Source of the DNA: Beroe forskalii
Taxonomy: Eukaryota; Ctenophora; Nuda; Beroida; Beroidae
Direction of reading: 5' to 3'
DNA: 64,000 nt
Assembly: GCA_011033025.1 (NCBI GenBank)
Contig: WFMF01000034.1
Span: forward strand, 744,001-808,000
In this document: positions 8,668 to 38,600 of the stretch, piece by piece
How positions within the stretch are numbered: position 1 is the stretch's first letter
Layout of the letters: each line of letters opens with the position of its first letter
Notes under the pieces: generated by a model
What the model saw: only the letters and a program-made list of their open reading frames with translations
The model's database searches: none
Told to the model about the DNA's origin: nothing
Position numbers and translations under genes: made by a program

Positions 8668-11600
8668 GTAAGAATCATTCGTTAATTATGTTAATTATTA
8701 GGGTTAATTAGGTTAATTATTATGCTTAATTAGGTTAATTATTATGCTGTATTTTGTTGATTATAAGGCGAGTTAACTATGTTAATCATCAGGTTTAATT
8801 ATGTTCACTATAAGGCTGAATTATGTTAATTATGTTAATTAACTACTAGGCTTATAGTTTCAATTAGCACGTTTTCATAGTCAAACATTGACGATCTATG
8901 AGCCGCTGTGATATGAGCCAAGATATGAGCCTGTAATCAATCCCCCTTCCTCTGCAGTTACAGCAGTACCCTGACGAGCTCGCTAAGCAAGCTATTCGAA
9001 TACTTCACGTTTTGAGGGAGTATGTAGTGGAGAACACCAACAAAGGTAATACGTGGCCCAGGGTTATAATTGGGTGTTTTCTCAAAAGGTAATACGTGAC
9101 AGGATTATAATTGGGTGTTGCCTCAAAAACTTTGCCCTGAAACTTTGACTAAAGGCCGTTTTTGGCTTTAAAAACTTAAGTCTGTTTCGGAGCATACCCT
9201 GGTTTCTGGTCTCTCGATGTACCAATTAGCGTATATCACTACAATTTCTTGTCACGTACCTTTGCGAAAAATACGCGTATTTTTCTCCAGGAGCCAATAC
9301 GCCGTACTTTTTCACGATTTTTGCACGCATCTAACAACGCTGAGTAATTTAACACGGTCTCATCCCAGAAGGGGGTTGTTACCAACCCCCAGTCCGAAAC
9401 GGAACTTATTAGCCAAAAACATCGTAACGTTTGTAGCAAATTTGCAATAAAATTTTCAACAAATTTACTAGGTAGTAACACGGTCTCATCCCAGAAGGGG
9501 GCTGTTACGAGGGGACCAACACTCCGTCCCATGAGAGGAGCTGGCAAGGCATTCCTCTTCTCCTCATTGCACAAGTCATAGGCCCTCATGATAAGGTAAA
9601 TTATAGCTCAAGGGATTGAAGTTTAAACGATAAATTAAAGTTTAATTATAGTCGATTCCTGGAGACCTGACGCTGTATTATTGTGTTGAATTCGATGCAT
9701 TTAGATAAAGCTGGCTTGGTTACCAGACCCAAAACTTAAATCTGACCTAGGCCCTTAATAACTTAATTAATAGCTTGACAATCTGTGTAGCAGCCTTCTA
9801 AAGTTCTGAAGACTATTTCCTCCAACTCTCCTCCTCCCCTGGTGGTTGAAAATCAAGACTATTTCCTCCAACTTTCCTACCCCAGGTGGTTGAAAATCAA
9901 GACTATTTCCTCCAACTTCCCTCCTCCCCAGGTGGTTGAAAACGCAGAGTTCCTCACCACACAACAAGAGTGAGACTCTTCCTCAGCTGCAGTTGAAGTG
10001 AGAATTCGAGGCTTGTTTCAGAGTTTGTATCCGTTTTTAGGACTAGGTTAATAACTGAAGTGAGAGTTGGAGGCTTGTTTCAGAGTTTGTATCCGTTTTT
10101 AGGACTAGGTACACAGTTGAAGTGAGAGTTCGAGGCTTATTTTAGAGTTTGTATCCGTTTTTAGGACTAGATACAGTTGAAGTGAGAGTTCGAGGCTTGT
10201 TTCAGAGTTTTGTATCCGTTTTAAGGACTAGGTTAACAGTTGAAGTGAGAGTTCGAGGCTTGTTTCAGAGTTTTTGATTCAGAGTTTGTGTTAGTGGTTT
10301 AAGGTCCATGTATACAATTGAAGTGAGAGTTCGAGACTTGCTAACTTGCTAGAGTTTATCCGAGAGTCGAAAAGGTCATCAGAGGTCCGACCACCGCATT
10401 GGTTAGTAGTCAACCAAAGAGTTTGACCAATTGCTGCTGTAGCCAGCGACCGGTGGGTTATATCCGGTATCAAAGCAACATACTTCGATATAAATTAGTT
10501 ATAAATTAATTTTCAATTAGTTTTAACTCCCCAGAGTTAACAACGAGGAACTGCCCCCGTCCTTGGATCGTAAAGCCCTGGTGCAGCTTGATATCAAGGA
10601 CAGACAAGTGATAACTGTGAGAGTACTCAACAACCAATTCCTTGCCTCCCCCAGCAGTGCTGACAGTGGGGACCTCTTTAACAGTCCTAGTGAGTAGTGG
10701 GGACCTCTTTAACAGTCCTAGTGAGTAGTGGGGACCTCTTTAACAGTCCTAGTGAGTAGTGGGGACCTCTTTAACAGTCCTAGTGAGTAGTGGGATGTCT
10801 CCCTAACTCACTCCCTCCCCAGGCAGTCCTATAAAACAGACAAAGTACCTACCCTGGCTACTGCACGTCAGTTCTGTAGCTCTGAACCACAGTTTCCCCT
10901 AACTCGCCCCCCTCCCCCTAACTCCCCCCCCCTAACTGCCTCCCCTAACTCCCCCCCTAACTCGCTCCTCCTCCTCCCCCCCTAACTCGCTCCTAACCCT
11001 TCCCTCCCCCCTAACTTTAACTCCCTCCCCTAACTCGCTCTATCCCCAGGCAGTCCCATTAAACAGACTAAATACCTACCCCTGGCTTCTGCTCTGAACC
11101 ACAGTTTTCCCTAACTCGTTCCCCTAACCCGCCCCCCCAACTCCCCCCCTAACTCGCTCCCCCCCCCCTAACTCTCTCCCTCCCCTATCTCCCCTCTAAC
11201 TCTCTCGCTCACCCTAACTCCCTCCCCTAACTTGCTCTCCCTAACTCACTCTATCCCCAGGCAGTCCTATAAAACAGACAAAGTACCTACCCTGGCTACT
11301 GCACGTCAGTTCTGTAGCTCTGAACCACAGCCATGTGGACTTGTGTGATGCAGTCACCGCTATTCTCAACATATTCCCAACAGGTACTTTTACTTTGAAT
11401 ACGTTGTTTCCGTATAAACAAATATTTCCCATGAGACAAGCGATGATTTTGATTTCCTGAAAGCTTGGTACAGAGCAAGATAACATTAAAGATAATATAT
11501 ATACGTAAATATACGTAAATATACGTAGATATACGTAAATTTTACATGTCACTCATTTACCAGATGTGGAAATTGAGCAGGACATCATTGAGATGACATC

Positions 11601-14600
11601 ACGGCAAGCCCAGGAGTACGTACAGATCTACGGACATTCCAACGAGGTAATTATTTTTCACGCTTCTTTTTTCGTCAATTAGGACGAGTAGATTGGTTAC
11701 GAACATCTTCAATTGTAGCAATTAAAACGCCGTGTTTTGTGATATTTCAATGAAGATATCAATTAAACTAGGAATTATAGTGAAAAACTATGGTTATTTT
11801 TAGTGAGAAACCATGGTTAAAATCACAAATGAATTACAAATAATTGTAATGAAAGAAGGAATTATTGACAAACTATGGTTATTCTTAGTGAGAAAACTAT
11901 TTGTAATTGACGTCAGTTTAGCAGCTGACGACGATAATCATGATTTTCGAAAGCTCCTGATTTTTAATCCTCTCAACTGCGGGGGGCTAAATAGTTTAAC
12001 AGTTTTTAGTATCTTTATTGACGACGACTTTGACTCTAAATTCTTTTTTTCCAAAAAGGGTTTATCGTCTGGAGTGTACCTTAGGAACAGTCTCTTTGAA
12101 TTTAAAGGGGTAAAAAATCTGGAGGTGTTTACAAATTTGGTAGGTTGTAATTTGGGATCTGGTATAAAGTCATTACTCTAGTTAAGATATGATAATGATG
12201 TCATTTTGAAAACTCGTCAGGTACAAAAATATGTATTAACTCAGATTTTTCTAGAAAAATCCCCAAATTACAAACTTGAGATTTTATAAATACACCTCAG
12301 AGGTTCCATTCTAGAAATATCATCAGGTACAAGTGCAGCTTCTACATTTGAGGTTCCATTCTGATAATGGCATTCAACTTGAGCTGCTATAACGTGTTCT
12401 ATCTATTTCTCCTGTGTGCATATTAACCAGAGGTTCCATTCTAGAAATCTCATCAGGTACAAGCTTGAGATTGTGTATTAACGTGAGGTTCCATTCTAGA
12501 AATCTCATCAGGTACAAGCTTGAGATTGTGTATTAACTCAGAGGTTCCATTCTAGAAACTTTAGGTCCTTGCATTCTGTATTAAAAGGTTAATTCTAGAA
12601 ATCATTAATTTGAGATTTTTAATCAGAGGTTTTTAGAAATCATCAGGTACAAGCTTAGATTGTGTATGCGTTATAGCCACCACAATAAGTGCCAAGTTGG
12701 CTTTTGACTTTATCCTTGCAGGTACAAAATATATTCGATGATTGATTTGTGATTTTATGATTTTATAATGTGTCCACTCAATTAATACATTGATTGAAAA
12801 CCACCACAATAAGTCAATAATTGGATTGATTCCTTTCATCCTGTGTACACAGTACAAACTCTCACTGTGTCAATACCATGTCACGATATATAAACTGTAC
12901 CAATAAATCTCCTTCATGTTTAGTAGCTTACGATAGTAATTATGCCAAATAAGGGAATGTGAAATTCTCACTCGTGTTACAGCTTTACTGGTAGTTCATA
13001 CCAAACGACCATTTCTCAATGAATCCGGTTGCGGTTTCGGTTTGCTAAAAAAGCCGGTTGACCGGTGTTTTGGTTCGGTTAACCGGTCGTTTCGTTGTGG
13101 TTAACTGTTAAGTGTGATCAATGATGTCATTGTCATGGTTTAATGTGGGTCATTGATGACGTATCTTAACCGCTTGCTTTACGAGACATATTAGTGTGGG
13201 GCAATAATTCTGAGGAAACTTAAGGGGCTCGAAAATAAGGGGATTTACTAAGTATGATCGCCGGAAATTTCGTTCTACATAATATGTCTCGTAAGGAATC
13301 TCGATCAAAATCATAGTTCATGATCTAATCTGTGAATAGCTACATAAGATTGATAAGATACTTTTCAGGAGCATTGTGATTCGAGATATAACACGATAAT
13401 ACGATATTCAAATTTCAGGTGCAAATCACTCCCACTCACTCACGTCACACGTGTCACTTTCTCAGATTCCACTCGCTCACTCCAACTTTCTCAGGTTCCA
13501 CTCACGTCTCACCCTTTTTACAGGTGGCGTTGAGATGGTGATATCCCTCTTTTCAGGTGGCGTTGAGATGGTGATATCCCTCTTTTCAGGTGGCGTTGAG
13601 ATGGTGATATCCCTCTTTTCAGGTGGCGTTGAGATGGTGATATCCCTCTTTTCAGGTGGCGTTGAGATGGTGATATCCCTCTTTTCAGGTGGCGTTGAGA
13701 TGGTGATATCCCTCTTTTCAGGTGGCGTTGAGATGGTGATATCCTCTTTCAGGTGGCGTTGAGATGGTGATATCCTCTTTTCAGGTGGCGTTGAGATGGT
13801 GATATCCCTCTTTTCAGGTGGCGTTGAGATGGTGATATCCTCTTTTCAGGTGGTGTTGAGATGGTGATATCCTCTTTTCAGGTGGCGTTGAGATGGTGAT
13901 ATCCTCTTTTCAGGTGGCGTTGAGATGGTGATCTCCCTCTTTTCAGGTGGCGTTGAGATGGTGATATCCCTCTTTTCAGGTGGCGTTGAGATGGTGATAT
14001 CCCTCTTCCACTCACGTCTCACCCTCTTTTCAGGTGGCGTTAAGATGGTGATATCCCTCTTTTCAGGTGGTGTTAAGATGGTGATATCCCTCTTTTCAGG
14101 TGACGTTGAGATGGTGATATCCCTCTTTTCAGGTGGTGTTGAGATGGTGATATCCCTCTTTTCAGGTGGCGTTGAGATGGTGATATCCTCTTTCAGGTGG
14201 CGTTGAGATGGTGATATCCCTCTTTCAGGTGGTGTTGAGATGGTGATATCCTCTTTTTCAGGTGGCGTTGAGATGGTGATATCCTTCGTTTCAGGTGGCG
14301 TTGAGATGGTGATATCCCTCTTTTCAGGTGGCGTTGAGATGGTGATATCCCTCTTTTCAGGTGGCGTTGAGATGGTGATATCCCTCTTTTCAGGTGGCGT
14401 TGAGATGGTGATATCCCTCTTTTCAGGTGGTGTTGAGATGGTGATATCCCTCTTTTCAGGTGGCGTTGAGATGGTGATATCCCCTCTTTTCAGGTGGCGT
14501 TGAGATGGTGATATCCTCTTTCAGGTGGCGTTGAGATGGTGATATCCCTCTTTTCAGGTGGCGTTGAGATGGTGATATCCCTCTTTTCAGGTGGCGTTGA

Positions 14601-17600
14601 GATGGTGATATCCCTCTTCCACTCACGTCTCACCCTTTTCAGGTGGCGTTGAGATGGTGATATCCCTCTTTTCAGGTGGCGTTGAGATGGTGATATCCCT
14701 CTTTTCAGGTGGCGTTGAGATGGTGATATCCCTCTTTTCAGGTGGTGTTGAGATGGTGATATCCCTCTTTTCAGGTGGCGTTGAGATGGTGATATCCCTC
14801 TTCCACTCACGTCTCACCCTTTCAGGTGGCGTTGAGATGGTGATATCCCTTTTTCAGGTGGCGTTGAGATGGTGATATCCCTTTTTTCAGGTGGCGTTGA
14901 GATGGTGATATCCCTCTTTTCAGGTGGTGTTGAGATGGTGATATCCTCTTTTCAGGTGGCGTTGAGATGGTGATATCCTCTTTTTTCAGGTGGCGTTGAG
15001 ATGGTGATATCCCTCTTTCAGGTATGAGATGGTGATATCCCTCTTTTCAGGTGGTGTTGAGATGGTGATATCCCTCTTCCACCACGTCTCACCCTTTTAC
15101 AGGTGGCGTTGAGATGGTGATATCCTCTTTCAGGTGGCGTTGAGATGGTGATATCCCTTTTTCAGGTGGCGTTGAGATGGTGATATCCCTCTTTTCAGGT
15201 GGCGTTGAGATGGTGATATCCCTCTTTTCAGGTGGTGTTGAGATGGTGATATCCCTCTTTTCAGGTGGCGTTGAGATGGTGATATCCCTCTTTTCAGGTG
15301 GCGTTGAGATGGTGATATCCCTCTTCCACTCACGTCTCACCCTTTTCAGGTGGCGTTGAGATGGTGATATCCCTCTTGCAATCGGACAGGTTCCTTGCTG
15401 GGGCTGATAAGAAAACCAGACAGAGTTGTCTGTACATCTTTGCGAAGATAACGAAGTTCGTGCTGACAACTTTGTGTTATGGTACTCTAGCTTTGCTCAA
15501 GGTAAGAGGGTGGTTTTGGGAAGTAAGAAGTCGGACTGTATGCCGACTCTGGATTCAAGAAAACCCCCTTTTTTAAAAGTAACCCTCCTCAGAAGCTTGG
15601 TGGTTTCGATCTTTTATACTTTCTAGAACAAATTCAGTGTGTCGCCAATTGCTGTCATGCTACTTGTCCTCCGACGATTGTGTGTGAAATTACCCATCAA
15701 ACTTACAGACGATTAACCTTGTGTTTTAGTTTGTTTGTAAGGAAAACTGCCTTGTTTGACTTTTTGAAAAGTTGAAATTGTCCCAAAGTCCCTTAATTTA
15801 TGAAAATATCATTTGCTCAGAAGCTCGGTGGATCTGGGTCCCGGACGGCAAACAATCTCCAGAACGCTCTGACCAGCATTCCCAATCCATCCATAGAACG
15901 AGGTTAGAAGAAGCAAATAGAGGAATAGCGAAGAGTTGTATTCGCAAACATCCCCTTCCCTTCCCCTTAGATGATTACGTAATATGTGAACGATCCTAAC
16001 ACTACTTTATACAATCAAATTTGAGGTTGATGACGGAGAAGAATTCCGAAAATATTCCCGATGTCAGTTTATTAAAATCAGATTTATTTATTAAAAATCA
16101 GCTTCTTTCAATTTGTCGCAGAGACCATAATCCCCATTAATCAGTACCTAATGAAACAATTTTACTATCAATTTCTTGGCCCAGTGCTACGGAGCGCAGC
16201 CCACCACACCATAGCAAACGAGGAGGTGTTGCAATGCATCAGGAGCAAAGTACAGAGCGTCCCTAATCTCATGTACATTCAGGTCAGTATATATGTGGGA
16301 TTTATACATTATACATTGCAAATATTCATTACATTCTGGTGGTGTATTGGTTCCCAGTCTGGCTCGTGATCGAAAGATCCCCGGTTCGATTCCCCGCAGT
16401 TCCCACTGAGCTAAGGGTGAAAAATACCTTGGTATCTCACGCCCATGCAACCACACGGTTCACTCATGGACATCCTGGTCAGTATGTACATGTAATTGTT
16501 ATACACGTACATTAGTGTGCAGCCGTGTACAGTATACGTACGCGAATTCATTCAGATCAGTTTTCAACTGCCAACCCTCGTATAATCTTCGTCTCAAAGC
16601 GTACTAAGAAATTTAATCGTTACACTAAGATGATAAAAGAAATTAATTCACTACTGTGGCCAAAAATTTGCTTTTCATTGCTCAAGAGCTGTTCATTCAA
16701 AATCCATCCATGTTTTGACTCCCCCAGGCAATATTCCTCAAAATCCATCCATTTTTGATTCCCCCAGGCAATATTCCGTCTCACGTGGCGGTGTGGGTTC
16801 GGGTACCCCCTTATCCCCCTTCCTGTGGACCAAGAGACGTGTCTTAATGCTGACACTGCCGCCTTCCTATTCGAGGACATGTGGCTTGCTCAAGTAAGTG
16901 GTGCCAGGGAGTGAAGTGGTGTCAATGTGGAGTGGTGTCAGCGTGAAGTAGTGTCAAACAATGAAGTGGTGTCAATGTGAATTGGTGTCGACGTAAAGTG
17001 GTTTCAATGAATTATCAATGTGAACAGGTGTCAGGAAAAACTATTCATTAGAAGGCTGAGACATTCCTGATCATGTTGTAAATCAATAATATTCATTAAG
17101 GAATTCCTTAGCTGAATTGTTTTTAAACACTTCGCTGAGCCAAGAGGAAAATATTGAAAATTAAACATTTTGTATTAGAAGGCTGTTGTCATAGACTTTG
17201 CACTTCATTTTTCGTTCAGGAGTTGATGGAGAATCTGACCATATGTTTCGCTCACCAGCCCCTCATTCTGGAATTACTACTGGTTGACAAGGAATTCCAG
17301 GAATTTATTGTCAATTTGGTCCTGGTTTGTCCCAACAGATACGTGCAGCAGGTAAGAGGAATTCGCCGAACCAAGAAGAGAAAACTGAAAATTATTCATT
17401 CTTTTATGTGGCTCATGTATATAATTATCTGTTAATTATTCGGTTAAATACGATAATTTTTCTTCGAATATATTTTGATTTCTTCTCCTCATCTGATATG
17501 CACTAATATGCATCTCAATGCTTTCCGGGTATTGTACAAATTAGTGCAATAAGAATGACACACATTCATATGTAAGCACTGTTGTTTTATTAACTTTGTT

Positions 17601-20600
17601 GTTAACACAATAGTTGTTGTTAACAAAGTAGTTAAAATCACATTTTCTCACAATTATTTTATCATTTCATATACTTTATGCCAGTATGATGAATAAAAAA
17701 ATTTCGTAGATTCTTTTCAAACTTTAGTACAAAATTGCGAACGAAGGATGCTGTAATGACCAATTAGTAATCTGTCAGCTAGGGTATTGATTGGTCAGTG
17801 ATAACATTTCAGGTAGCATCAGAACAGCTGTACATACTCTGTGTGAAGTGCTGTGTCGCCGGCAAGAGCATTCTTGATGTTATCAAACTGCTCTTCGATA
17901 ACTTGCACAAAACAGGTACAGTTGGGGGATGAGGCCCGAAAAAACCCTACCCTACTTCATACCCCCCCCAAAACCCTAATTATTCTGAGGGACTTTGGCG
18001 CGAATATTGTGATTTGAATTTTGCTACTTCAGAAAATCTTACTGAACTTGAATCTCACTTTCTGCCATCTTGCTGAAGCTAAAAACCTGATACCTCTACA
18101 AAGTTATGTGATCCCTCCCCTACTGGGGAAGAACGGGACTCTCGTCGCATCCGGGAGCACGAGAGCGCTTGCCTCGACCTCCAGCTCCCTCTCCTGGGCG
18201 CCGCCTGGGCCCTCGCTTGCCCACCCCCTTCTATAGTAGTAGATCACTCGCCATCTTTTTCTTTCCTCGATTTTATTCCCCTTTCCATAGAAGATCACGG
18301 AGACAGCAGCAGCTACTACTTCAACCTGTTGTGTCGCATCTTGTCGTGTGCTGCGCATCACAACATAGTCCTGGGAAACGCCAACTCCCTTCTCGAACAG
18401 GAGGTTAGTGTTCGGTTCCTCTTGGAAGTTCTGTAATTCGGTTGTTCGGTACTTAATGTGCGTATTGTTTAATCAGTTTTCTGAAAAGAATTTCCAAACA
18501 CAAGAAAATATATTGTAATTGTGATTCCTCAAACTCATCAACACTAACTACGCAGAGAAATTATTAATTTGAGGCTTGGTGCCGTTTTGCATGCACCCAG
18601 AACGATTTGGATTGAATGCACCATCACGAAACTTACGCGCTACAACAGGCGGAAATTCTGCGCAATTCACTTTATTTAAACGCAAGGAAATAATTTAAAC
18701 GTGCAATTATTTGTTCAAAACGCCGCGCGCATAGACTAGATTGACCGTTAAAGTAAACTTTTTACCATTTTTGTCTGGGTGCCTTTTAAGGCACCCTCTT
18801 TCAAGAACGATTGCGATACTAGCATTGCATCAAACCGCAATGAATGAATATGGCCATGAAGTTATCTAACCCGTGACTTTGTTTCAGGTGGCGTGGCTCA
18901 AGAGTATAGAACATCACAACAAATTTCACCCGCTGAACGACACTCTCCTGAAAGGTTTACTGGATCTGGTGATCACCGTGTCGAGTTTCCGATAATTTGA
19001 AAGATAAATAGCCGCCTTTTGTAGTCATCGTGGTCATTTGGTTTTGTTTTGAGTCAGTTTTGTCCAAAAATAGCACTTGGCACAGTAATTTAGTTGAGTT
19101 TGCGTGAGTTCATGATTCCGCCAAAGTGGATGCAAATTGGATGCACTTGGATGCGCTTGAGAAAATTTTCTCAACTTTTGAGAAAATGATTTTGTGCGTG
19201 TTTTAAGGCCTGAAAATGATCAGAAATGGTTGAAACATGAAAGTATAGCAAATACGATTGGCCTAGGCGATTTTTAAGAGTTTTGGTAAATTTTGGGCCC
19301 CATAATGGCCGAAAAAGGCCCAAAAAGGTCGAATTTTAAAATTGCCCAAATTTGATTTCTATCGACTCAAATGTGTTTGTAGACATCCTAGGACACATTC
19401 TGCGTGGTTTTTAGACCGAAAATCGATAAAATCCGGCCGTGAGGCGATGCATCCAAGTGAGAAAATGGACTTGAGAAAATGTGGATGCATTTTCTCAACT
19501 TTTGAGAAAATGGTTTTGTGCGTGTTTCAAGGCCTGAAAATGATCAGAAATGGTTGAAACATGAAAGTTTAGTGAATACGAGTTGCCTTAGGCGATTTTT
19601 AAAACACGTACAAAACCATTTTCTCAGTAGTTGAGAAAATGCATCCACATTTTCTCAAGTCCATTTTCTCACTTGGATGCATCGCCTCACGGCCGGATTT
19701 TAGCGATTTTCGGTCTAAAAACCACGCAGAATGTGTCCTAGGATGTCTACAAACATTTGAGTCGACAGAACAAATTTGGGCAATTTAAATTGACCTTTTG
19801 GGCCTTTTCGGCCATTATGGGCCCAAAATTTACCAAAACTCTTAAAAATCGCCTAGGGCAACTCCAATTTACTATACTTTCATGTTTCAACCATTTCTGA
19901 TTATTTTCAGGCCTTAAAACACGCACAAAACCATTTTCTCAAAAGTTGAGAAAATGCATCCACATTTTCTCAAGTCCATTTTCTCACTTGGATGCATCGC
20001 CTCCTCACGGCAGGATTTTAGCGAATTTCGGTCTAAAAACCACGCAGAATGTGTCCTAGGATGTCTACAAACACATTTGAGTCGATAGAAATCAAATTTG
20101 GGCAATTTTAAAATTTGACCTTTTTCGGCCATTATGGGGCCCAAAATTTACCAAAACTCTAAAAAATCGCCTAGGGCAACTCGTATTTACTATACTTTCA
20201 TGTTTCAACCATATCTGATCATTTTCAGGCCTTGAAACACGCACAAAACCATTTTCTCAAAAGTTGAGAAAATGCATCCACATTTTCTCAAGTCCATTTT
20301 CTCACTTGGATGCATCGCCTCACGGCCGGATTTTATCGATTTTCGGTCTAAAAACCACGCAGAATGTGTCCTAGGATGTCTACAAACACATTGGAGTCGA
20401 TAGAAATCAAATATGGGTAATTTTAAAATTCGGCCTTTTGGGCCTTTTTTCGCCCATTGTAGGGCCCAAAGTATTTAAGACTCTTAGAAACCATCCAGGG
20501 CAACTTTCTGGCTATTCAGTCATAATTCAGTCAATCGAAGTCACTTTTAGGGAAATGAGAAAATTTTCTCAACTGGATCCAGCTCAATCGCTTATAATGA

Positions 20601-23600
20601 GCGCGCGCGGATTTTCTCAAATTGCATCCACCTCGCGGAAGAGTCAATGTTTCGCCGATTTGGAACAAAAATGGAACAAAAATGGAACAAAAGTGTAAAA
20701 ATTTGTCGGCATATATCAGAGGCAAGCGTTTGGTTTGGATTGACTTTTTGATGATCTAAATGTGTTTTAAAGGGATTGAATCGATAGTATTGATAAGTTT
20801 TTAGTGCTGAATTGCCACCCTGGTGCCACCAGATAGCCGCCAAAGCCACCTATTTTCATACGCGTATAACCTGTAATTCTATGTACTTTTGACGGTTGAT
20901 GGTAGGTCATAGGTACTCAAATTGTTGCTAGAGATGTTTTAGAAAGTATTTCTAACGATTAATAGATGGTACATAACCTTTATACTTGATTTGAAAGGCG
21001 TAGCCGAGTTTCTAAAAAAGTGGAACAAATGTGTAAGCATATTTGGAACAAAAGTGTAAAAATTTGTCGGCATATATCAGAGGCCAGAGTTTGGCTTGGA
21101 TTGACTTTTTGATGATCAGGATGTGTTGTAGGGGGATTGAATCGATAGTATTGATAAGTTTTTAGTGCTGAATTGCCACCCTGGTGCCACCAGATAGCCG
21201 CCAAAGCCACCTATTTTCATACGCGTATAACCTGTAATTCTATGTACTTTTGACGGTTGAAGGTAGGTCTTAGGTACTCAAATTGTTGCTAAATATGTTT
21301 TAGAAAGTGTTTCTAGCGATTAAAATATGACACATAACCTTTCTACTTGATTTGAGAGGCGTAGCCGAGTTTCTAAAAAAGTGGAACAAATGTGTAAGCA
21401 TATTTGGAACAAAAGTGTAAAAATTTGTCAAACTATCAGAGAGGCCAGAGTTTGGCTTGGATTGACTTTTTGATGATCAGGATGTGTTGTTTAGAGTTAT
21501 GAATCGATAGTATTGATAAGTTTTTGTGCTGAATTGCCACCCTGGTGCCACCAGATAGCCGCAAAACCACCTATTTTCATACACATATAACCTGTAATTC
21601 TATGTACTTTTGACGGTAATTAACACCTCGACAGCGGCTAGAAGCGGACTACCCTGCTGCGATTGACACCATCCTCTCAACTGCCGTCTTCCTTGACACC
21701 AACTGCGGGGGCGTCAGGTACAGTTTAGCAGTTTCTTAGTAGACGATGACTCTAAATTTAATTAAAAGGGTTTATCGTCTGGAGTGTACCTTAGGAGGTG
21801 TATTTACGTGGAGTAAAATATTGGTGTTTACAAATTTGGTAGGTTGTAATTTGGGATCTTTCTCAAGTCATTACTCTAGTTAAGATATGATAATGATGTC
21901 ATTTTGAACTGTAATGGTGGGTAAAAATATGGGGATTTTTCCGAAAAATCCCCAAATTACAACCTTTATAAATACACCTCCTACGGTATGTATGTAAGTA
22001 TGTAATAATCAGTGCAACTTCCTACATTTAGCTCTGATAATGGCATTCAACGAGCTGCTATAACGCCTATTTCTCCTGTGTGCATATTAAATTATTAACG
22101 TGAGGTTCCATTCTAGAAATCTCATCAGGTACAAGCTTGAGATTGTGTATGCGTTACTCATGCCAGCCTCGCCTTGCGAACGAAGTGCCAAGTTCAGAAG
22201 CGACTTTATCCTTGCAGGTAAAAATAATCGATGATTAATTTGTGATTTTATGATTTTATAATGTGTGCGCTTAATTAATATATTTATAGAAAACCACCAC
22301 AATAAGTCCAATAATTTGCTTGATTGATTCCTTTCATCCTGTGTACAATCCTGTGTACTCAGTACAAACACAGTACAAACACAGTACAAACACAGTACAA
22401 ACACAGTACAAACACAGTACAAACACAGTACAAACACTCACTGTGTCAATATACCATGTCACGATATAAACTGTACCAATAAATCTCCTTCATGTTTAGT
22501 AGCTTACGATAGTAATTATGCCAAATAAGGAAATGTGAAATTCTCACTCGTGTTACAGCTTTACAGGTAGTTCATACCAAACGACCGGTTACCATTTCTC
22601 AATGAATCCGGTTACGGTTACGGTTCGCTAAGATCGCCGGTTAACCGATGTTTCGGTTCGGTTAACCGGTCGTTTCCAAGTTGTTCAGTGTGATCAATGA
22701 TGTCATTTTCATGGTTTCATGTGATGTATTGATGACGTATCTTAATCGCTCGCCTTACGAGACATATAAGTGTGGGACAATGATTCTGAGGAAACTTAAG
22801 GGGCTCGAAAATAAGGGGATTTCTTAAGTATGATCGCCGGACATTTCGTTCTACATATGTTTCGTAAGGAATCTCGATCAAAATCATGATTCATGATCTT
22901 ATTTGTGAATAGCTACATAAGATTGATAAGATACTTTTCAGGGGCATTGTGATTCGAGATATAACACGATAATACGATATTCAAACTTCAGGTGCAAATC
23001 ACTCCCACTCACTCACGTCACACGTGTCACTTTCTCAGATTCCACTCGCTCACTCCAACTTTCTCAGGTTCCACTCACGTCTCCGTCTTTTCAGGTGGCG
23101 TTGAGATGGTGATATCCCTCTTTTCAGGTGGCGTTGAGATGGTGATATCCCTCTTTTCAGGTGGCGTTGAGATGGTGATATCCCTCTTTTCAGGTGGCGT
23201 TGAGATGGTGATATCCCTCTTGCAATCGGACAGGTTCCTTGCTGGGGCTGATAAGAAAACCAGACAGAGTTGTCTGTACATCTTTGCGAAGATAACGAAG
23301 TTCGTGCTGACAACTTTGTGTTATGGTACTCTAGCTTTGCTCAAGGTAAGAGGCTGGGTTTCTGGAAAGTAAGAAGTCGGACTGTATGCCGACTCTGGAT
23401 TCATGAAAACCCCCGTTTTTTAAAGTAACCCTCCTCAGAAGCTTGGTGGTTTCGATCTTTCATACTTTAGAAAAATTCAGTGTGTCGCAAATATACTGTC
23501 ATGCTTTTTGTCCTCCGACGATTGCGTGTGAAATTACCCATCAAACTCAAAGACGATTAACCTTGTGTTTTAGTTTGTTTGTAAGGAAAACTCCTTCGTT

Positions 23601-26600: not shown

Positions 26601-29600
26601 CGCATCACAACATAGTCCTGGGAAACGCCAACTCCCTTCTCGAACAGGAGGTTAGTGTTCGGTTGCTCTTGGAAGTTCTGTAATTCGGTAGTTCGGTACT
26701 TAATGTGCGTATTGTTTAATCAGTTTTCTGAAAAGAATTTCCAAACACAAGAAAATATATTGTAATTGTGATTCCTCAAACTCATCAACACTAACTACGC
26801 AGAGAAATTATTAATTTGAGGCTTTGTGCCGTTTGCATGCACCCAGAACGATTTGGATTGAATGCACCATCACGAAACTTACGCGCTACAACAGGCGGAA
26901 ATTCTGCGCAATTCACTTTATTTAAACGCAAGGAAATATTTTAACGTGCAATTATTTGTTTCAAAACGCCGCGCGCATAGACTAGATTGACCGTTAAAGT
27001 AAACTTTTACCATTTTTGTCTGGGTGCCTTTTAAGGCACCCTCTTTCAAGAACGATTGCGATACTAGTATTGCATCAAACCGCAATGAATGAATATGGCC
27101 ATGAAGTTATCTAACCCGTGACTTCGTTTCAGGTGGCGTGGCTCAAGAGTATAGAACATCACAACAAGTTTCACCCGCTGAACGACACTCTCCTGAAAGG
27201 TTTACTGGATCTGGTGATCACCGTGTCGAGTTTCCGATAATTTGAAAGATAAATAGCCGCCTTTTGTAGTCATCGTGGTCATTTGGTTTTGTTTTGAGTC
27301 AGTTTTGTCCAAAAATAGCACTTGGCACAGTAATTTAGTTGAGTTTGCGTAGCGCGCGGAGCGATTTGTTTGTCAAGAAGTTTTCGCGCTCTTGTTTCTA
27401 AATGTCACGTGACCGTTTTGATATCGTTCATGCAGAAATTTTATGCTTACCAAGCACTGGTAGATCGTCTCTGTTCCAGGAAATACTGGCTACAGCAGAC
27501 CCGGAAGGAATTGCAATCATTGGCTCATCGTGATTAATGATAAGGAAACGGCTTACAAAATTTTAAGAGATAACTCATAAGTTTCTGCAAAGCATATGGT
27601 CGCTGCAAATCTAAATTCTTTAAAGCATCGATGGCTTTTTGAAAACTGAGATTAACATTGAACAAGCTTAATCAACAGCTTTTACAAAACTTTCGCCCCT
27701 AAATATAATATCTATTTTCCTACAATGCACTCCTCCACCCTTGTTGTTTGGTTTTGTATCCATGTTTTCGACTAGGTCACCTACAAGTGTGTCGCGAGCT
27801 GGTGGCTATATCTCCTTTGTCCACTAAAGTACAGCTAGGTACCCAAGACAACGGTCCCAGCCTCCTTCCTTCCCTCCTCTTCAACTACCTCTTCCCGGCC
27901 AGCAAGATGCTGAATTCGTTTGCTTGAGTTTTATTTATGATTTATTCCTTGAAATTTTACATGAAATATGTGAACACTTCCATAATGGTTAATACCATTT
28001 CTACACTGTGCATTGTGGAAGCTGTTACTCAAAATATCGCCTTTCACCCCCTTTCGTGTCAGGTTTTTAACTCAATTTTCGTCAGATGCTTCACGATCAA
28101 CGACAGTTCCCAGATATCGATATCAGAGATGATCCGCCCATTTGCCAGACTCCACTTACCCAAGTAAATCAAAAAATCCTTTCATTTAAATCTAGGCCGC
28201 AATCCTATAATACACCATCCTATGAACCTAATTATTGTCATTATTTCCTCGATTGTTTATTAAAAGTTTTGTATTTTTTCAATAATTAAACGTGACCAGC
28301 TTCCCTACCAACACTCTGACCGCTACTCGCCAGGAAGCAGCGTTTGGTCTGATCGGAGCACTGTGCAAGGGCTGTCCGGAGAACCTTAACTTCGTGGTCA
28401 CTTCCACCAAAGACCTCTTCTACTCGGAACCGAGCCCCGTTACGTCCTGGGAGTTCCCACCCCCAATCCTCCCTCGCAACTTGAAGGGTTTGTATTTCAC
28501 TCATATTTGGGTAAATTGGAGTTTCCTCCATACTCCCTCGCAACTTGAAGGGTTTGAGTTTCACTCATATTTGGGTAAATTGGAGTTCCCACCCCCAATC
28601 CTCCCTCGCAACTTGAAGGGTTTGAGTTTCACTCATATTTGGGTAAATTGGAGTTCCCACCCCCAATCCTCCCCCGCAACTTGAAGGGTTTGTATTTCAC
28701 TCATATTTGGGTAAATTGGAGTTCCCACCACCAATCCTCCCTCGCAACTTGAAGGGTTTGTATTTCACTCATATTTGGGTAAATTGGAGTTTCCTCCTTA
28801 CTCCTTCGCAACTTGAAGGGTTTGAGTTTGCAGTATATCACCATTTTTCGCGACAATTTTTAGCGGTTTTCTTACTGCCCTTTTGAACTCCATAATCAGA
28901 CGCTAAAATTTATTTAGAAAAGAAATTTGAGTTGTTGATTTCACGGATCGGCCTACCGACAAGTGCGCACATAAGAATCTATTTCCCACGGTCTAACAGG
29001 GTGCCCTGTCAATGGTTTGAGCTGAGTGAGCACTTCAGATGCTGAAAACGACAACTGCGCACATTGCAGCACAGCCAAGTCAGAATCTTATCCAAACTAC
29101 AACAAACGCTGCCCCACCATACGTGCAGCCACAGTGTCCATGCGAGGTCATGATGGGGACTTTGGCATGCGAGGTCATGATGGGTTACGTGAAGATCGAC
29201 TCACGTGATGTAGCTCATAGCTTTAGCGTGTCATGTGAGAGGAACTGGAAGGGTTACATCATAGCTCATAGCTTCCTGTGATATCTTAGATATGCATGTC
29301 TACTTGGTTAGGTTATCTGAGATAAGAGAGATAGCTCGTCAAGGTAGATAGATATGAGAGGTAATGCGGTTGTCTTCAGCAAGTTCATCACACGCCACAC
29401 AGAACGTTGAAACAGAAGCCCTCGCCTTCGCTACTTCAGCCTCAGGGCTATCCGTGACCAACAAGTCACTTCTGATTACCACTGGGATCGGCTTGCCAAT
29501 GGTATATTGGTATGACCCCTGCCAAGAAACGCAAGCCTTGACAGTAAAACCTGACCTGATCCCAGAGTTGAATCTTTGAATGTGCGCACTTGTCGTTTCA

Positions 29601-32600
29601 GATGCAGAGGATTTACTGATTGGGCTACTCCCCAAATTTTCCCACGCTACCCTGTCAATTATTGAGCTCCCATGTGCGCAGTTGTCCGGCAGCCCACGGA
29701 TCCTGTCGTTGAATAAAAGGTGCATAATTCAAGGACTCCACCTTGTACTCAATGTACCGGTACAAGAAAATTAGTCACTCTTCGCCCTTTTATTTGAAGT
29801 ATGTAAGCAGCTAAATTTCGATTATTTTTCACTTTGGATGAGTTTTGACTGTTATTTTCAATCAGGTTTCGTGGGTCTGAAGAACGGAGGAGCTACGTGT
29901 TATATGAACGCTGTCTTACAGCAGCTTTACATGATCCCTGAAATACGATCCAGCCTCCTATCTCTGGTTAGTTATTCCAATTATTGTCATGTTACTTTCT
30001 TCTGACGATTGGGTATGAACTATCCATGAAAATTGAAGTGAAGACGATTTAATTTTGGTATTGAAGTAGCAATTCATTGTTTAATCAACATGGAAAGATA
30101 TATTTTCTAGATTGAGTATTGATGAATGTTTTGCAGCCGTGTTCGGAAGCAGACGAGGCCGAGATGCATCCCGCGAAACTTCATCATCTGGGCGTAGCAA
30201 AGCAGGTATTATCAAGAGTTATATCAGAATATTTCTATTAACCAAGAAATATAATTGAGCTACGAGTGTTAGATTATAGCAAAGAAACTGACAATAAATT
30301 GGAGTGTAAATATCCATTTTTCTTGATTACACTTTGGATAAACCCAAAAACATTCTACAAACTCCATCTCAGGTCCAAGCCATATTCTGCGCCCTCAAAG
30401 AATCCAAGCACCAGTACTACACTCCTGAGGGGTTCTGGGAGGCGTTTAAGTACTGGGGAGAACCAGTGAACCTCCGGGAACAGCATGATAGTTTGGAGTT
30501 CTTCAGCGCCCTCCTCGATAACTTGGTGAGTGTGAAGATAAGACTTTTCATTTGGAGACACGGTGAGGATTGATAGTATCTGCATCGAGCAGACTTTCGA
30601 TTGGAGACACGGTGACATCTTTATAACTTGGTGAGTAGAGGAGAATAGGGCATTCTCAGTTCTAAGGTGTGTATTCTTCAGGCGGTTGGTCTCTGGTTCT
30701 GCGAGCGTTATCCTTTGCAATTCACCCCAGATTGAAGAAGCTAATCCCCTATCAACTTCCTTTGCAATTCACCCAGATTGAAGACACTTAATTAAACCCT
30801 TCAATTCACTCCAGGTCGAAGGAACTAAAGCCCTGGAACAGCCCCCCTTCATCACTGACATCCTTGAGGGCTGCTTCGCGGATCAGAAGATCTGCAAGGG
30901 GTGCCCCCACCGGTACACCCGGATAGAACCCTTCCTCCTTATCTCGGTGGATGTGAGGAACCATGAGAACCTCATGGATAGTCTGGATGAGTTCGTCAAG
31001 GTAAATGGTGTCTTTTTCAAATTGCTCAGTATTGATAACCCACAACTGCATGTTATCGTTATATTCTTTCCTTCATCATAGAATCACAAAAGTAAACGTT
31101 GTCCTAGATTACAATGGTTATTTCATCAATTGTATACTCAGAAAGAACCTGAAATTTCGAACAATCATTCATTCCATGGCTATTTTGGGTGCCCCATCAC
31201 ACTATGGGATCGTTCACATATTGCGTAATCCATTTTTGGCCTATTTTATCCCCCTCCCCCTCGTAATCTAGTTAACAGTAGTTGTATATGTTACAACAAC
31301 ATGTAACATATTAATTCGGAACCCCCCCCCCCTTGGTGATTACGTAATATTTTGGGTGCCCCATCACACTATTTCCGTAGGGTGACCTGCTGGAAGGAAA
31401 CAATGCCTACCACTGTGAGAGGTGTGATAAGAAGGTGGATACCGTCAAAAGGCTCTGTTTCCAGAAACTACCTGACGTTCTCGCGATTCAGCTCAAACGG
31501 TGAGGGAACAGTGTTCTTGAATAATTATCGTCATATTTTTTGATAGACCCGAAAATTTATTGCTGAATATGTATCGAATACTCGTATATTATGGCAATAT
31601 TAAGTTCGTGGTCCCCTGACTCAAAATCAGTGTCTTTGATCAATGTCAAACTAGTCGTTCCCTTCCAGATTCGGCTACGACTGGGAGCGGGAGTGCTCAG
31701 TGAAGTATAACGATTACTTCGAGTTCCCGGACACGCTGTCTATGGAGCGCTACACGGTGGATTTCCTGTCTAGGATAGAGGAGACGTCCGCTCACGAAAT
31801 GATAGAATCGGGTAATTTACTAATTTAGAAAATGATTAAAAATCTGAGTTTTTAGTGAGTGTCAACCCCTACAGCATGGGTCTCAAAGAACGCGTTTCAC
31901 TTTGTTGAATATGTACTCGGGGTCCTTTCCGAAACAGATTCGTGTCAACGTTTGAGTGCAAATTTACAATCAACTTTTTAGATTTGAGTCAACTTATTGA
32001 CTTAAGTCCAATGACTTTCTCATACTGTCCATCATTTTCAGGTGACAGGCAGGACGCCCCTACTCCGTCAGAGAACTCCAACTACAGATTGGTGAGAGTT
32101 TACCTGAATTTCATCCGAAGTTTTCACGTTCAAATTGCAACGAGTAAGATTCTGATTCATGCAAAATATTGAATCGTGTAACAATTTTGGAGGGAAACGG
32201 AGTAAGCATATAAACTTTAGAATTCATGCATCTTTTCGTTAGTTGGGGTATTGGTATTGGGTACCACAGATTCACAGAAAATCAACTTAATAATAACTAC
32301 CCACCCCTCCTAAGGTTGGCTACAGATTGGTGAGAACTTACCTGATTTTTTTTTCAATTCCATTCAATTTGTCATTAGTTGGGGTATGGGTACACCTATT
32401 ACTCCTCCGCTAGGTCGGTGTGGTGGTACACAGTGGTCAGGCTAGCGGGGGTCACTACTACAGCTACATCAAACAGCGGGTTGGAGATGGGAGTGGGGAG
32501 GTTGAGAAATGGTACAAGTTCGATGATGTGGACGTGTCAGAGTGCAACATCGATCAGGTAATTCACTCCTCATCGATCTAGTACGTCGATCAGGTAGGTA

Positions 32601-35600
32601 CTATACGCAAGAATAGGCAGTTGTAAACACAGTATTACTTGAGAAGTATCTTGCCAGTGGCCACGATGACAAGGTAAAAAGACTTTTGATTCTGGAAACA
32701 GTCCCCTTTTCACTTCTACAATAGTTTCAATCGAATTGTTATAGATGAAGATAATGCATCGTCCCCTATTCCCTCTCTTTCAGGAAGGCCAGATGGCAAA
32801 GCTGTGTTTTGGTGGAGACAGCACTGACATTGACTCTCCTGATCGCAAACCAAGGTTCGTGTCAGCAATTTAGAGATTTGCAACTTTGCTAATTCTTGGT
32901 CTATTGTTAGCTTTGGTCGTTTACTTTTAATTGTTTTTAAAATAGCATTTCATTGATCGTACTGCTTCTCTCAGAACTCTCGCAAGATCGTATTGTTTCC
33001 CTATTGTTCTCGTACGATGACACTTTCTTTCTCTCAGAACTCAGAAGAGGTGGTGGAATGCTTACATTCTCTTCTACGAGCGACAGGAGTACAGTGCTGT
33101 GGAATGTGTGGAAGAAGAGGAGAGAAAAGGAGAGGAGGAGGAGGAGGAGGAAGTTGGGGAGATTGGGATGATGCCGGTTATAAACCTTAAGGTGAGCTTT
33201 TACTTATAGGGTAGAAATGGGACATTTGGGTGTTTGGTGGTTGAATATAATGAATTCAGAGGTAATCATCGCCAATGTAGTGCCTGATCAAAGTCCTGTG
33301 TGTAAACTCATACAAGAGCTTATTTGCGCGCACGAGCATGCTTCTTCACAAAAGATGAAAAGCTTCCCGCGCACCTGAACAAACGCGTAAAATTGGGGGA
33401 ATACCGCATCGCCTGTAATATATTTCTCTCACCTTAAGTCTCGTGTGTCAGAGTTGAAGTACGATCCACCCCCGGCCCTGGTCCAGAAAGTAAGACAGGA
33501 CAACCTCACGTTCTTCCACCAGGTCGCATACCGCATTTTTGTGATTTTTTCTTTTTCATTTTCCTTTATAGATAAGACTTTTGGGTTTTCAAATTATGCT
33601 CTGAGGCGGTTATAATTCGACTTTTCTAAACGCTATTTCATTCTCACTTTTCCACTCTTAATGATAGCTTTCTCACCCCAACCTTTCCAGAGATCCCTAT
33701 ACTCCAGCGAGTTTGCGCAGTTCATTAAGCACGTGACCCTTCCCAACGTGAAGATGAGCCACCCTCCCACACCCACTGCGGAACTGAAGCCTCTGAAAAC
33801 TAACCAGGGGTCAGGAGAGCAGATAGCCCTCGATTGCTTGGATTTACTCGCTTCCTACCTTTTCCAGGTATTGGTTATTGTTTCGATGGCCTCAGTAATT
33901 TGTTAACTTATTAAGTCTGATTTTGTACCCCCAACCCTACCTAAACCTTTCCCTTATCACACTTAATTCTTTTTAGACTTCGTACACTTTTCACCCCCTC
34001 CCCTTACATCAGACCGGATTCTTATGTAAAAGACAGTGAGAGGAAGGATTGAAGAGTGGCAAGACCTCCTTCTTAACCTTCTTCAATCCAGCGATGTTTG
34101 TCGGAGGTGGTTTGCTGCCAACTACCTCTTTGATACGCCTAATAGGTAACCAATTTGATGTAATTTACGGAAGTTTTTTTGTGTGCCAAACAGATACCTT
34201 TTCTATACCCCTTATGAAGTAAGTAGAGTTGACTAATAAGTGCGCCAGACATCTCTTTTAATCTGATAAACTCTTGACCAATCAGAGTTTCGGATTGGTA
34301 TAATACTGGGTACTGATTGGCCATCCCTCCCTGTCAGGTTTATCAGTACCTCCTGGAATGTCCCATGGCAGATGTTCGGTCCTCCTTTGCCTTCATCATT
34401 ATTACCCTCGCTAAGCTGAGTGTCCCTGACCCGCCCCTCTCTTTGTCAGAACTCAACGCATGGACTGCTGACGGGTTTGTAAATTATCTTCTAAACCCAT
34501 TTAACTCTCTCTGTCCCCGCTTTTCACAGGTTTTGCTGACGGGTTTGTGGACTTTGGTTGTTTTTGACTTTTTAAAACCATGCGAAACTGTCATTGGTAT
34601 CAGTTCAACTTATTGCAAACCCATTTTCCCATTAGCTCTCAGGTTTATCTCAGGTTCTTGATTCTTACTTAAAGGATTTTACCCCAGCTTCCGTTGCTTT
34701 TTCCGCGGGGAGTTTGCTGTACTCCAAATGTCCGAGTATTGCGCGCAAAAGATGGGACAATTGGTGAAATCCATCCTAACTTTTTTGTATTTGGCTTTCA
34801 TTGAAACTGTTATTGGTCTCAATTCATTATATTCTGAACTTTTCCAATCCCTGCTTTTAACGGGTTTTCCTACGGTATCGACTGTATGGGTCCCCTGTCA
34901 ATCCACATCATCAGTGGCTGCTTTGCCCTGCTCAGCTCCACTCGGGTGGATTACAACCGGAACATGCAGCAGGTACATTACTGCCAATTTGCCCTTCTTC
35001 CACAGGGTGCCCTTCTTTTGGCCTTGAAATCATACCCTGCATCGGGTCTTCCAAGATTTAGCAGCTATGAGCAGGTATAAACCCGAGAAAATGGTTCCTG
35101 CCGTGCTTGGAGTGCATGGGTTTCCGGAAATGTTGTCTTTCAAAGTTCAGTAATTGCGGCGGCGTATTAGTTAATGACCCACTGATCCATTTGACAAATT
35201 GGCCAAAAGTGGTCACATGAAAGGCAGTTGATATTCACCGAGCAATGCGTCAATATCCAATACGTGGACTTGCCTATCCATTCCTCAGTTAGGGAGCAAG
35301 TTTAAAAATTTACATGATACGATAAAGTTTAAAATCAGAAGCTTTCGAAAATTATGTGATTATCTTCCTCAGTTGTTCCACGCTTTCTACTGCCACCTAC
35401 AAGGGGGTCTCAACGAACGGAGCCAACTGCTGAAACTCGGGGTTCACAAGAAATTCCTCAGCATCCTCCTTGACGAGGTAAGGAATTTTAATACAACGAT
35501 CTGGTTTTGATAATCATTTCCCTACATAGGTGGTTTTTCTGCTGCATTTTTTCTCTTCGTTGTTCCTGATTAACCCTGCTTAAACCGGCCGTTTTGCCTG

Positions 35601-38600
35601 CGTCAGATTCCGACCCATGGTCGGAACAACCTAGCCCTATCTTTTGAGTGATAGATCTGTGATAAGAAACATTTTGGCCCAGGTCCAAATGTGAGAGCGC
35701 AATGGAACGACATGTCGTCCATCCACAATGTCATTGCAACTCTGCTGTGCTCCTCCAACCTAAACGATATGAGACAAACTCTGACTGGATTAGCTGTCGA
35801 TGTCCCCTGCCCCATCAATACCACCCAAGTGAGTGAATGTATCCAGTCTACGCTTGAAAGCTTCATTTTAAGTGAAAACTCGCAAAATCTGCTCTTAAAT
35901 TTTGCTAACTTTGCAGTTTGCATTGATATGGTCCGAAATCAGCTGAGATACATTTCAGTTTGTAGAGTTTTATCGCATTTATTTCTCAAATTCTTCTCCG
36001 GACCCCTGACTCGGAAGTAAAACAGCTCCTCCAGTCAGAAAACTACTGCTACTTGAGGAAACTGCTGGAAGAACCGACTGTTATGGAAATGGACGTATGT
36101 ATCAAATCTTTAATCCAATTCTACTTCTAAAAGGGGAACGGACCTGTGAGAGGTCCGGGAACTTATCCCCCGGTTAACCAACTTCACTCTGAATCAGATC
36201 GAAACATCCCGCGTGCTCGAAGCCACTCTCCCCCCCCCCCCACTTTATTTCGTCACTTTAGTACTTTTGATTGAGCATATTCTAGATAAATGATAAATAT
36301 TTAGTGCCATGTTGATATCAATTGTCAAACCCGAGGAATGATCCTGAACCTATAAATTCACCTTTGTAAGGACATCGTTCACACTTCACATATTACGTAA
36401 TCGCCTAGGGGGAGGGGGGTTTCCGAATGATTACGTTACATGTTATTGTAACAAATACAACTACTGTAAACTTGATTACGAGGGGAGGGGGGTTAAAATC
36501 GGACTAAAATTGATTACGTAATATCTTAATATGTGAACGATCCCTAAGGACATCGTGAACCTGCTGAAGCACGTTACCTGGGAGAACGCCCGAGCGAGTA
36601 AGGTAGTTCTGATGGAGCTGCTCTATTACATCTCCTCCGTTCACAGTGCGGATATGAAGCCTTACCTCGTCTTCCTTCTCCATATACTACTCATCAAGGA
36701 CACCTGGCAGAAGAAGAGGTAGATTTCCGTACTTTTTTGTTCTTTTTTCGTCAAATTCGACAGAAAAAGAGGCAAGGTAGGAGAAGCGTGATTAGCGGAG
36801 GAGCAGGGTGATGTTAGGGGTTTCTGGGAGCTTTAAGTGTAACGGGTTGCAGGCCAAGCGGGGTTTATCTAGAGGAGAGAATGGGCAGATCTAAGGGGTT
36901 ACCGACCAGCCTCCAACACTTCCTTCCCTCCCCCAGGACCCAGGTTGCTTTAAAGCCGCTGATACATCCTTCGCTCTCTCAGAATCCAGTTAGTTTTAAG
37001 CCTCTAATACCTCCGTCCTTTCCCCAGGATCCAGCTAGTTCTGAAAGGAGGTCCAGAACGGGATTCCCTTCTCGACATCATCCTCCGATCCAAGTCCTGT
37101 CACCAGAAACGAGCGTATCTGTGCATGAAGTGCCTGACTAACCTCCTAAATGCCAACTCTCTGGCAGCTGAGATATTCTTTGACGATGACGATAATAAGT
37201 TTAGGTTTGTGTTCGTCGCGCCCTCCCACGGTTCGTAAGCCATGGTTAAAGTTTGTGTACGGATTAAAGTTTACTAATGTTGGAAAAGTATAAGAAATGG
37301 GGGATATTTTGGATGTTCTAAGAATCTGAGATCAGGGAATGTTATCATTCCATGGTGTCAGAGCAAATCACCATTTATAAACCACTTTACCCCCCCCCCA
37401 GATGAGAAGTAGCAGGCTCGAAGTGGCTGATTTGGAATTTCAGCAACATCTAGAAATTGGGAAGGAAAAATATGGCTGTTTCTGCTAATAATACTACCTA
37501 GCTCATTTTAACCCTATTTTTGAAAAATACTCATCTAGTTCTACCAACCTTGTCCAGGTGGGAAGGAGCAGTGAAGTGGCTGGGTGTGCAGTTAGAAAGG
37601 AGACCAGGGTACCATGAGGACGAACCCCCTGAGTGGGCTGCCAACCTTTCTAACGAGTCAGGGAACGATTACTACATTGAGAGGACCAACTCTGCCATCT
37701 TACTCCTTCAGAAGGTAGGATCAGTTGAAGATCACTTATGGTCGTTTGTGTTAACACCTTTATTTTTCACTCCGCTGGCACCCACGTGGTAGTCATGTGG
37801 TTACCACGTGACATGCCTTGTGGGGAATAGGTGTAACGTGACGGGAGTACGAATTTGAGCGGACCAACCTTCTCAACGTTCTAGAGGGTTCCAACTATCA
37901 GGACTTCTCCAGATAATACTCCCCTCCCCTATTTCTATTAACCCCCCCATTCTGTAATCTGTCACGAAATCGAAAAATGAGAATCATTTTGAAATTTCCC
38001 AGTGGCGCGGCACTATGTTATGTTTGACGATTATAGTTTGTACTTTACGTGTTATACTGTTAAATCAGTATCACGCATGTACAAATTATCCCCCCCCCCC
38101 CCAAGAAAATAGACATTTTTTGAATACCAAATCAGGATTTAGGTAAAGTCGGATCAACGTTCAAAAAATGGACAGTCAAGTGACTTTTTTCTAATAACAC
38201 TCTTTCAGGCGAAAGATCGCTGGATCAAAAAGCTTTGGCACTGCTTCAAGTTTTGGCAGTGCTCAAAGCTTTGGCAGTGCCCCAAGCTTTGGCAGTGCTT
38301 TAACATTTCCAACTCTTTTCGTTCAGGCGGAAGCACTGCTTCCAGAAGAAAGTGACGAAGAAGAATCGGTGGAAGAGAACAATTCGCCGAATAACACGAG
38401 TTCTCCTAACGTAGCGAGTCCCTCAAATCCCCTTGGCAACGCCACCAATCCCCTAGACACCGCTAACAGTCCCCTTAGCAACACCCCCAATCCCCTGAAC
38501 ACATCCCCTCCCCTGGGGAGCAGCACCCCAGGAACCAGTCCCCTGGTAGTCGGGGGCACCACCCACGTTAACCCCCTGGGTGCCATGACGTCACACAACG

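Follow-up and report, generated by a model that had tools for sequence, protein, structure and literature searches.

We analysed a stretch of 64,000 nucleotides from the ctenophore Beroe forskalii (the window; C403:744001-808000 in the assembly), which carries the 3' two-thirds of a USP9X-like gene. Tandem arrays run across exon-intron junctions of this gene, and their units contain the splice site together with adjoining exon bases. Spliced alignment with the Mnemiopsis protein P0001 and tblastn resolved the gene into ~44 exons (Table 1). The draft protein from the joined exons matched Mnemiopsis leidyi (65% identity, 99% of the query) and Bolinopsis microptera (68% identity, 51% of the query); the remaining named proteins among the best 120 of 714 matches were vertebrate (33-40% identity). 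In the assembly that we searched (216 Mb, 1134 contigs), Mnemiopsis residues 1 to ~660-690 are encoded at the end of contig C730, and the residues between ~660-690 and 838 were not found.

Junction-spanning arrays in the USP9X-like gene

The clearest cases lie at the donors of exons 6 and 21 and at the acceptors of exons 7 and 11. The most extreme array has a 33-bp unit made of the exon-11 acceptor and 28 exon bases, present in ~50 copies at one place and 4 at another. Each of the 12 units printed for the window corresponds to its own exon edge. The arrays consist of head-to-tail units of ~10-100 bp, as in minisatellites or variable number tandem repeats (VNTRs). Positions inside a local repeat with an ungapped score of at least 16 made up 20.6% of the real sequence and 0 in two block-shuffled controls. 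Since the controls had no spanned positions, the USP9X repeats are not due to chance.

Table 1. Junction-spanning arrays, gene and duplicated segments, in window coordinates (TRF, Tandem Repeats Finder)
Feature	Position	Strand	Detection or extent
41-bp unit x2 across exon-2 donor (9045)	9042..9128	+	TRF only
Two 33-bp copies (9350-9382, 9476-9508), second across exon-3 acceptor (9495)	9350..9508	+	local alignment
44-bp unit x3 across exon-4 acceptor (9932)	9809..9942	+	TRF, local alignment
62-bp unit x4.6 across exon-4 donor (9997)	9990..10273	+	TRF
31-bp unit x4.2, perfect, across exon-6 donor (10689)	10665..10794	+	TRF
Three copies, ~210-230 bp apart, of exon-7 acceptor (11261) with up to 70 exon bases	10798..11330	+	self-comparison
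33-bp unit x~50 across exon-11 acceptor (15350)	13512..15377	+	TRF
Exon-11 33-bp array, 4 copies, second segment copy (acceptor 23194)	23082..23221	+	TRF
41-bp unit x2 across exon-14 acceptor (16768); single in other copy (24832)	16697..16777	+	TRF
79-bp array across exon-16 acceptor (26066); single in other copy (17813)	25761..26079	+	TRF
68-bp unit x5.7 across exon-21 donor (28487), 38 exon bases per unit	28450..28829	+	TRF
Two 30-bp copies (32082-32111, 32320-32349), first across exon-28 donor (32091)	32082..32349	+	local alignment
Diverged 45-bp unit x2.9 across exon-43 acceptor (37028)	36908..37040	+	TRF, 70% matches
USP9X-like gene, 3' two-thirds	8584..38743	+	Mnemiopsis residues ~838 to near C-terminus
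Duplicated gene segment, first copy (exons 11-18 included)	12054..19105	+	self-comparison
Duplicated gene segment, second copy	21764..27350	+	self-comparison

The first-pass annotation of this sequence had listed such repeats at 19 boundaries of the gene, and 11 of them are well supported. The acceptors of exons 3, 4, 7, 11 and 14 and the donors of exons 6, 21 and 28 gave local alignment scores of at least 40. Of the two copies of a duplicated segment, only the second carries the array at the exon-16 acceptor, and the exon-2 donor and the diverged array at the exon-43 acceptor were detected by TRF only. Four further boundaries (acceptors of exons 12, 25 and 31, donor of exon 24) scored 27-30 and are at chance level, as the threshold of 26 is passed by 20.9% of random intronic points. 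For the other four (acceptors of exons 5, 10 and 41, donor of exon 29) we found no support. The exon numbers of that list seem to follow the raw spliced-alignment model. Exon 5 of that model (10047-10121) was rejected as a false exon within the 62-bp array; this array spans the exon-4 donor, which the list did not contain.

Exons 11-18 occur in two segment copies. Their 8 paired exons align over 873 columns, with 21 mismatches and one gap of 1 base. The seven gap-free pairs have 20 silent codon differences and 0 amino-acid changes. Both copies resemble sequence under constraint. The paired introns have 7.1% mismatches over aligned bases, with a mosaic divergence of 0 to 24%. The copy numbers of three arrays differ between the segments (~50 and 4 at exon 11, 2 and 1 at exon 14, ~4 and 1 at exon 16), which could reflect either alleles or a true duplication, and a purely intronic 50-bp tandem duplication differs as well. 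In total, 15 indels of at least 12 bases were found in seven introns; three were recognised as clean tandem duplications and 11 of the others sit in one poorly aligning intron. The segments are likely two haplotypes placed in tandem by the assembler, rather than a true duplication. For another ctenophore, Hormiphora californensis, PMC8527503 gives a combined heterozygosity of ~3.2%.

Arrays in PRPF8 and the state of the assembly

PRPF8 was picked without knowledge of its repeats. One of its introns, 2433 bp long, is filled from 15 bp after the donor to the acceptor with 58-bp units, each made of the intron 3' end and 13-14 exon bases. Another, of 902 bp, consists mostly of 52-bp units that combine ~45 exon-end bases with GTATTGT, the start of the donor. 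With the arrays collapsed, these introns measure 59 and 75 bp. The third PRPF8 junction, on contig C1080, carries a 57-bp acceptor unit. This array was taken as junction-derived since its unit reads as an exon start, and it was counted among the three PRPF8 hits; tblastn in the C1080 tiles found no further PRPF8 exons after it, and its true junction was not seen. AGGT is present at one of the three PRPF8 boundaries with arrays.

In the tiles fetched, C802 and C1080 both contain the same PRPF8 5' part, and the gene is lost near residues 574-646. On C1080 the point of loss adjoins the 57-bp acceptor array, as if such arrays break assemblies.

The N-terminal half of USP9X, on a repeat-poor contig, contained no junction-spanning array among its 3-4 arrays. 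Likewise, a tubulin gene with 13 modelled exons, also on a repeat-poor contig, had no such array except a 9-bp repeat located at the final codons of the alignment, and it had one other array. GOLGA7 was represented by three modelled exons. DDX49, which could be modelled only partially, does not enter the counts; its modelled 29-base exon, enclosed by a 19-bp array of 2.8 kb, was judged spurious.

Two units were searched for in the assembly. The 33-bp USP9X unit was found only at its two USP9X places and the 58-bp PRPF8 unit only in PRPF8, bar weak partial matches on other contigs. Since both searched units are private to their own gene, they do not look like a dispersed mobile family. Units with intron-like content and splice sites could also derive from introners or from some other mobile element that inserted at junctions. 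However, similar copies at many unlinked places, as such an element would leave, were not found for the two units, and all 12 printed window units correspond to their own exon edge, which makes this origin extremely improbable.

The assembly is unreliable in the USP9X region. The gene is split over C730 and C403, exons 11-18 stand twice in a row, and one duplicated exon has the 1-base gap. PRPF8 is fragmented as well, with pieces on three contigs and, in C377:20001-60000, exons on both strands; one C377 copy of its 58-bp array looks error-laden, perhaps through an inverted haplotype misassembly and a noisy consensus. All of this could point to arrays, or array lengths, that are largely artefacts of noisy reads and unmerged haplotypes. 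Against this stand distinct units with variants at many junctions, in two genes and on separate contigs, and arrays in both segment copies. Moreover, those arrays with just two to four short units add up to 70-320 bp and should be difficult to produce by error. We regard an artefact as quite improbable.

Other repeats were observed in the window. Between the segment copies, 19165-21617 is an insert in which tandem repeats of 318 bp and 361 bp occur with inverted repeats; an inverted, diverged relative of the 361-bp repeat is located at 62281-63215. Upstream of USP9X, where the 5' exons are missing, 1268-4407 forms a large imperfect inverted repeat, possibly a misjoin, with 61/92-bp tandem arrays that are self-matching in reverse orientation. 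A 39-bp minisatellite of ~41 copies (55514-57151) is positioned outside the modelled USP9X exons. Elsewhere in the assembly, G000:C615:17768-19252 matches USP9X residues 1403-1931 with 41% identity within a single 1127-residue open frame, which suggests an intronless paralogue or a retrocopy.

Junctions compared with introns and exons

The first-pass annotation held that minisatellites coincide with junctions instead of falling anywhere in introns. This does not describe the arrays as a whole, since 15 of 23 touch no modelled junction and 8 do. One of the 15 lies inside the last exon, and one (9059) reaches the exon-2 donor in its TRF version.

We compared junctions with points in the surrounding sequence. 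Of the 80 junctions in the USP9X 3' part, 16 were in repeats at a score of at least 26 and 9 at a score of at least 40. Intron points up to 250 bp from a junction gave 20.9% and 15.2%, and exon points 2.2% and 1.6%, respectively. In the other genes, at a score of at least 40, repeats covered 3 of 82 junctions, 16.4% of the intron points and 0.3% of the exon points. Junctions and nearby intron thus stand at 11% and 15% in USP9X and at 4% and 16% elsewhere. The ungapped version gave 13 of 99 junctions, a count that still included the false exon 10047-10121; in the two 15-base intron bins next to the junctions, 13.9% and 15.2% of bases were covered, and coverage of all intron positions, satellite arrays included, was 24.7%. 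Exon bases 1-15 from the junction were covered to 11.6%, while bases 31-60 were covered to 4.2%. Since junction coverage is similar to or below that of nearby intron and the exon edge is covered far more than the deeper exon, these results fit tolerance of repeats that happen to cross a junction.

Position coverage is dominated by long arrays, and event counts were therefore added. They exclude arrays with more than 120 bp or less than 15 bp per unit and arrays that are at least 90% exonic. Raw exons at 10047-10121, 12003-12109, 12654-12721 and 21769-21797 (second copy) and a 1-base exon at 34286 were dropped before the counts. In the USP9X N-terminal half and PRPF8, raw exons below 40 bases were dropped too (some C377 ones lay inside arrays), except a 36-base one in the C1080 array. 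Two null models were used, one with random placement and one with the host intron and its collapsed length. The 52-bp PRPF8 array counts as two pieces in the former and is merged in the latter.

Several event counts weigh against duplications that fall without regard to junctions. Under random placement, 6 of 14 arrays in the USP9X 3' part span a junction (expected 1.98, P 0.007), as do 2 of 2 in the second segment copy (expected 0.36, P 0.027), 3 of 18 in PRPF8 (expected 0.44, P 0.0085) and 9 of 35 in the first copy and the other genes together (expected 3.05, P 0.001). Under the host-intron model an excess was again seen in USP9X (6 of 14, expected 1.82, P 0.004) and in all genes together (9 of 34, expected 4.41, P 0.009). 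The USP9X N-terminal half gave 0 of 3 under random placement, and without the part in which the arrays were discovered 3 of 21 remained (expected 1.07, P 0.07).

The two models disagree for PRPF8 and both are reported; under the host-intron model 3 of 17 arrays span a junction (expected 2.41, P 0.43). This conditional test finds nothing unusual because the collapsed introns are so short that ~50-bp duplications usually include a junction, with a chance of 0.92 and 0.74 in the two array introns. The event excess that survives both tests is confined to the gene that was chosen for it, and in USP9X the excess is otherwise unexplained.

Next to these counts we placed an annotation-free motif test. 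Arrays with 18-120 bp units numbered 110 in 279 kb, at 0.08 to 0.57 per kb depending on the contig. They showed no clear excess of splice motifs over control segments, with a good acceptor in 14.5% and 12.0% and a good donor in 11.8% and 9.5%, respectively. An ab initio exon finder placed both edges correctly for 7 of 51 known exons and was dropped. The earlier observation that many units carry AGGT did not amount to over-representation, since AGGT is found at 4 of the 12 supported window boundaries and at 61 of all 131 tested junctions. Without an AGGT enrichment in the units, the data give no support to the AGGT route of intron gain as the driver.

A genome process that preferentially duplicates across junctions, for instance through breakage or faulty replication linked to splicing, to transcription or to polypyrimidine tracts, would agree with the event-level excess in USP9X and, when intron length is not conditioned on, in PRPF8. 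It would also agree with the finding that three of the four recognised duplication or expansion differences between the USP9X copies are at acceptors. However, there is no excess by position, PRPF8 meets expectation once host-intron length is used, the USP9X N-terminal half has no junction-spanning array and tubulin none except the 9-bp repeat, and the 110 arrays lack a clear splice-motif excess. We therefore judge such a process unlikely. The preferential copying of junctions proposed in the first pass is not established: junction positions are in repeats no more than nearby intron, and the event excess is clear only in USP9X. As the sample of independent genes is small, a modest preference may still exist.

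Decoy splice sites and the origin of the arrays

Splice-site strength was scored with a position matrix derived from these genes (66 acceptors, 66 donors), and an exact decoy was defined by identical 13-14 bases around the site. Diverged arrays (exon 2, exon-4 acceptor, exon 16) gave no exact decoys. The 58-bp PRPF8 array contains 36 (median 8.0, true site 8.0) and the long exon-11 array 29 (median 13.0, true site 14.0). Arrays of decoy sites, as first suggested, do exist, and the exact decoys counted roughly equal the used site in strength. If a decoy were used, the open frame would be kept by 0 of 36 in the 58-bp PRPF8 array and 0 of 29 in the long exon-11 array, and by 3 of 3 in the short exon-11 array. 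The exon-proximal sites yield the conserved protein and are probably those used in RNA. Judging from the sequence, the cell would have to single out the real splice site from a series of near-identical decoys.

The full strength of the exact decoys might suggest that selection favours the arrays, with redundant splice sites or longer introns aiding splicing or regulation. However, young homogeneous copies would presumably stay strong without selection. None of the PRPF8 and long exon-11 decoys keeps the frame, although all three in the short array do, and the copy number differs ~12-fold between the two exon-11 arrays. We consider it very improbable that the arrays are favoured. Of the two roles that had been proposed for selection, its tolerance of copies across junctions is supported, and the covered exon edges fit it.

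In our view the arrays are probably locus-private minisatellites that arose by ordinary tandem duplication and are tolerated across junctions through splicing at the exon-proximal site. Tandem duplications of 30-80 bp would arise often in this genome. Inside an exon, a duplication would alter the protein and be lost; inside an intron, it would be kept. One that crosses the exon-intron boundary would copy the splice site along and also be kept. The exon-proximal copy would still give the normal exon, as exon definition predicts, and leave the protein unchanged. The extra copies would turn into intron and may expand to dozens, the intron growing from its own edge. The USP9X segment copies may represent stages of this course, with 1 and 2 units at exon 14, 1 and ~4 at exon 16, and 4 and ~50 at exon 11. 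Such stages in two copies with intact exons (20 silent and 0 replacement differences) count for ordinary duplication. We infer both the duplication mechanism and the neutrality of the copies. The USP9X and PRPF8 arrays look like ordinary runaway repeats, not like the product of a process aimed at boundaries.

A bolder extension is that introns in this ctenophore lineage grow mainly from their ends. Junction-crossing duplication, seeded above chance, would turn short ancestral introns into ones with dozens of full-strength sites, viable only by exon-proximal choice. We think this rather unlikely.

Junction-crossing tandem duplication is known from few described cases, and here it recurs in two conserved genes. 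The arrays are a natural experiment on how the spliceosome chooses among equal sites, and they demonstrate one concrete way in which introns lengthen. Caution is needed with gene models near such arrays, since the assembly divides USP9X between contigs and doubles part of it.

Minisatellites and VNTRs consist of tandem units of tens of bases whose copy number differs between copies. Unlike these repeats in general, the ctenophore unit includes exon bases and a splice site that is of working strength by the matrix. Other related systems are compared below. In the potato RdRp gene, a tandem duplication over an intron-exon boundary created a new intron (Ma et al. 2016, PMC4974935). This duplication, too, includes an intron 3' end, the start of the exon that follows and the acceptor signals. 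However, it is a single duplication with a new intron, while in the ctenophore dozens of copies enlarge an existing one. The AGGT model of intron gain, reviewed in PMC3443670, similarly involves tandem copies of exon bases that have splice-site potential. In contrast, the ctenophore units are not AGGT-enriched, and they lie at existing junctions with no new intron shown.

Fission-yeast introns in SPOG_01682 and SOCG_00815 are made of 24-nt tandem repeats with a proto-splice site (PMC3629103). The likeness lies in an intron region of tandem repeats that resemble the nearby exon and contain a proto-splice site in their units. Those are two gained introns, whereas the ctenophore arrays are longer and occupy existing junctions in conserved genes. 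Introners share repetitive intron DNA with splice sites (PMC9860276), but each of the two ctenophore units searched is confined to one gene, apart from weak partial matches. Rogers and Bendich (2025, PMC11782384) described direct repeats, 4-30 bp long, at intron borders or close to them. Both kinds of repeat are found at intron-exon borders, and the ctenophore ones differ as multi-copy arrays at one intron end. A limited literature search found no report of junction arrays in ctenophores. Within that search, the new aspect is the scale, with multi-copy arrays at several junctions per gene and dozens of full-strength decoys.

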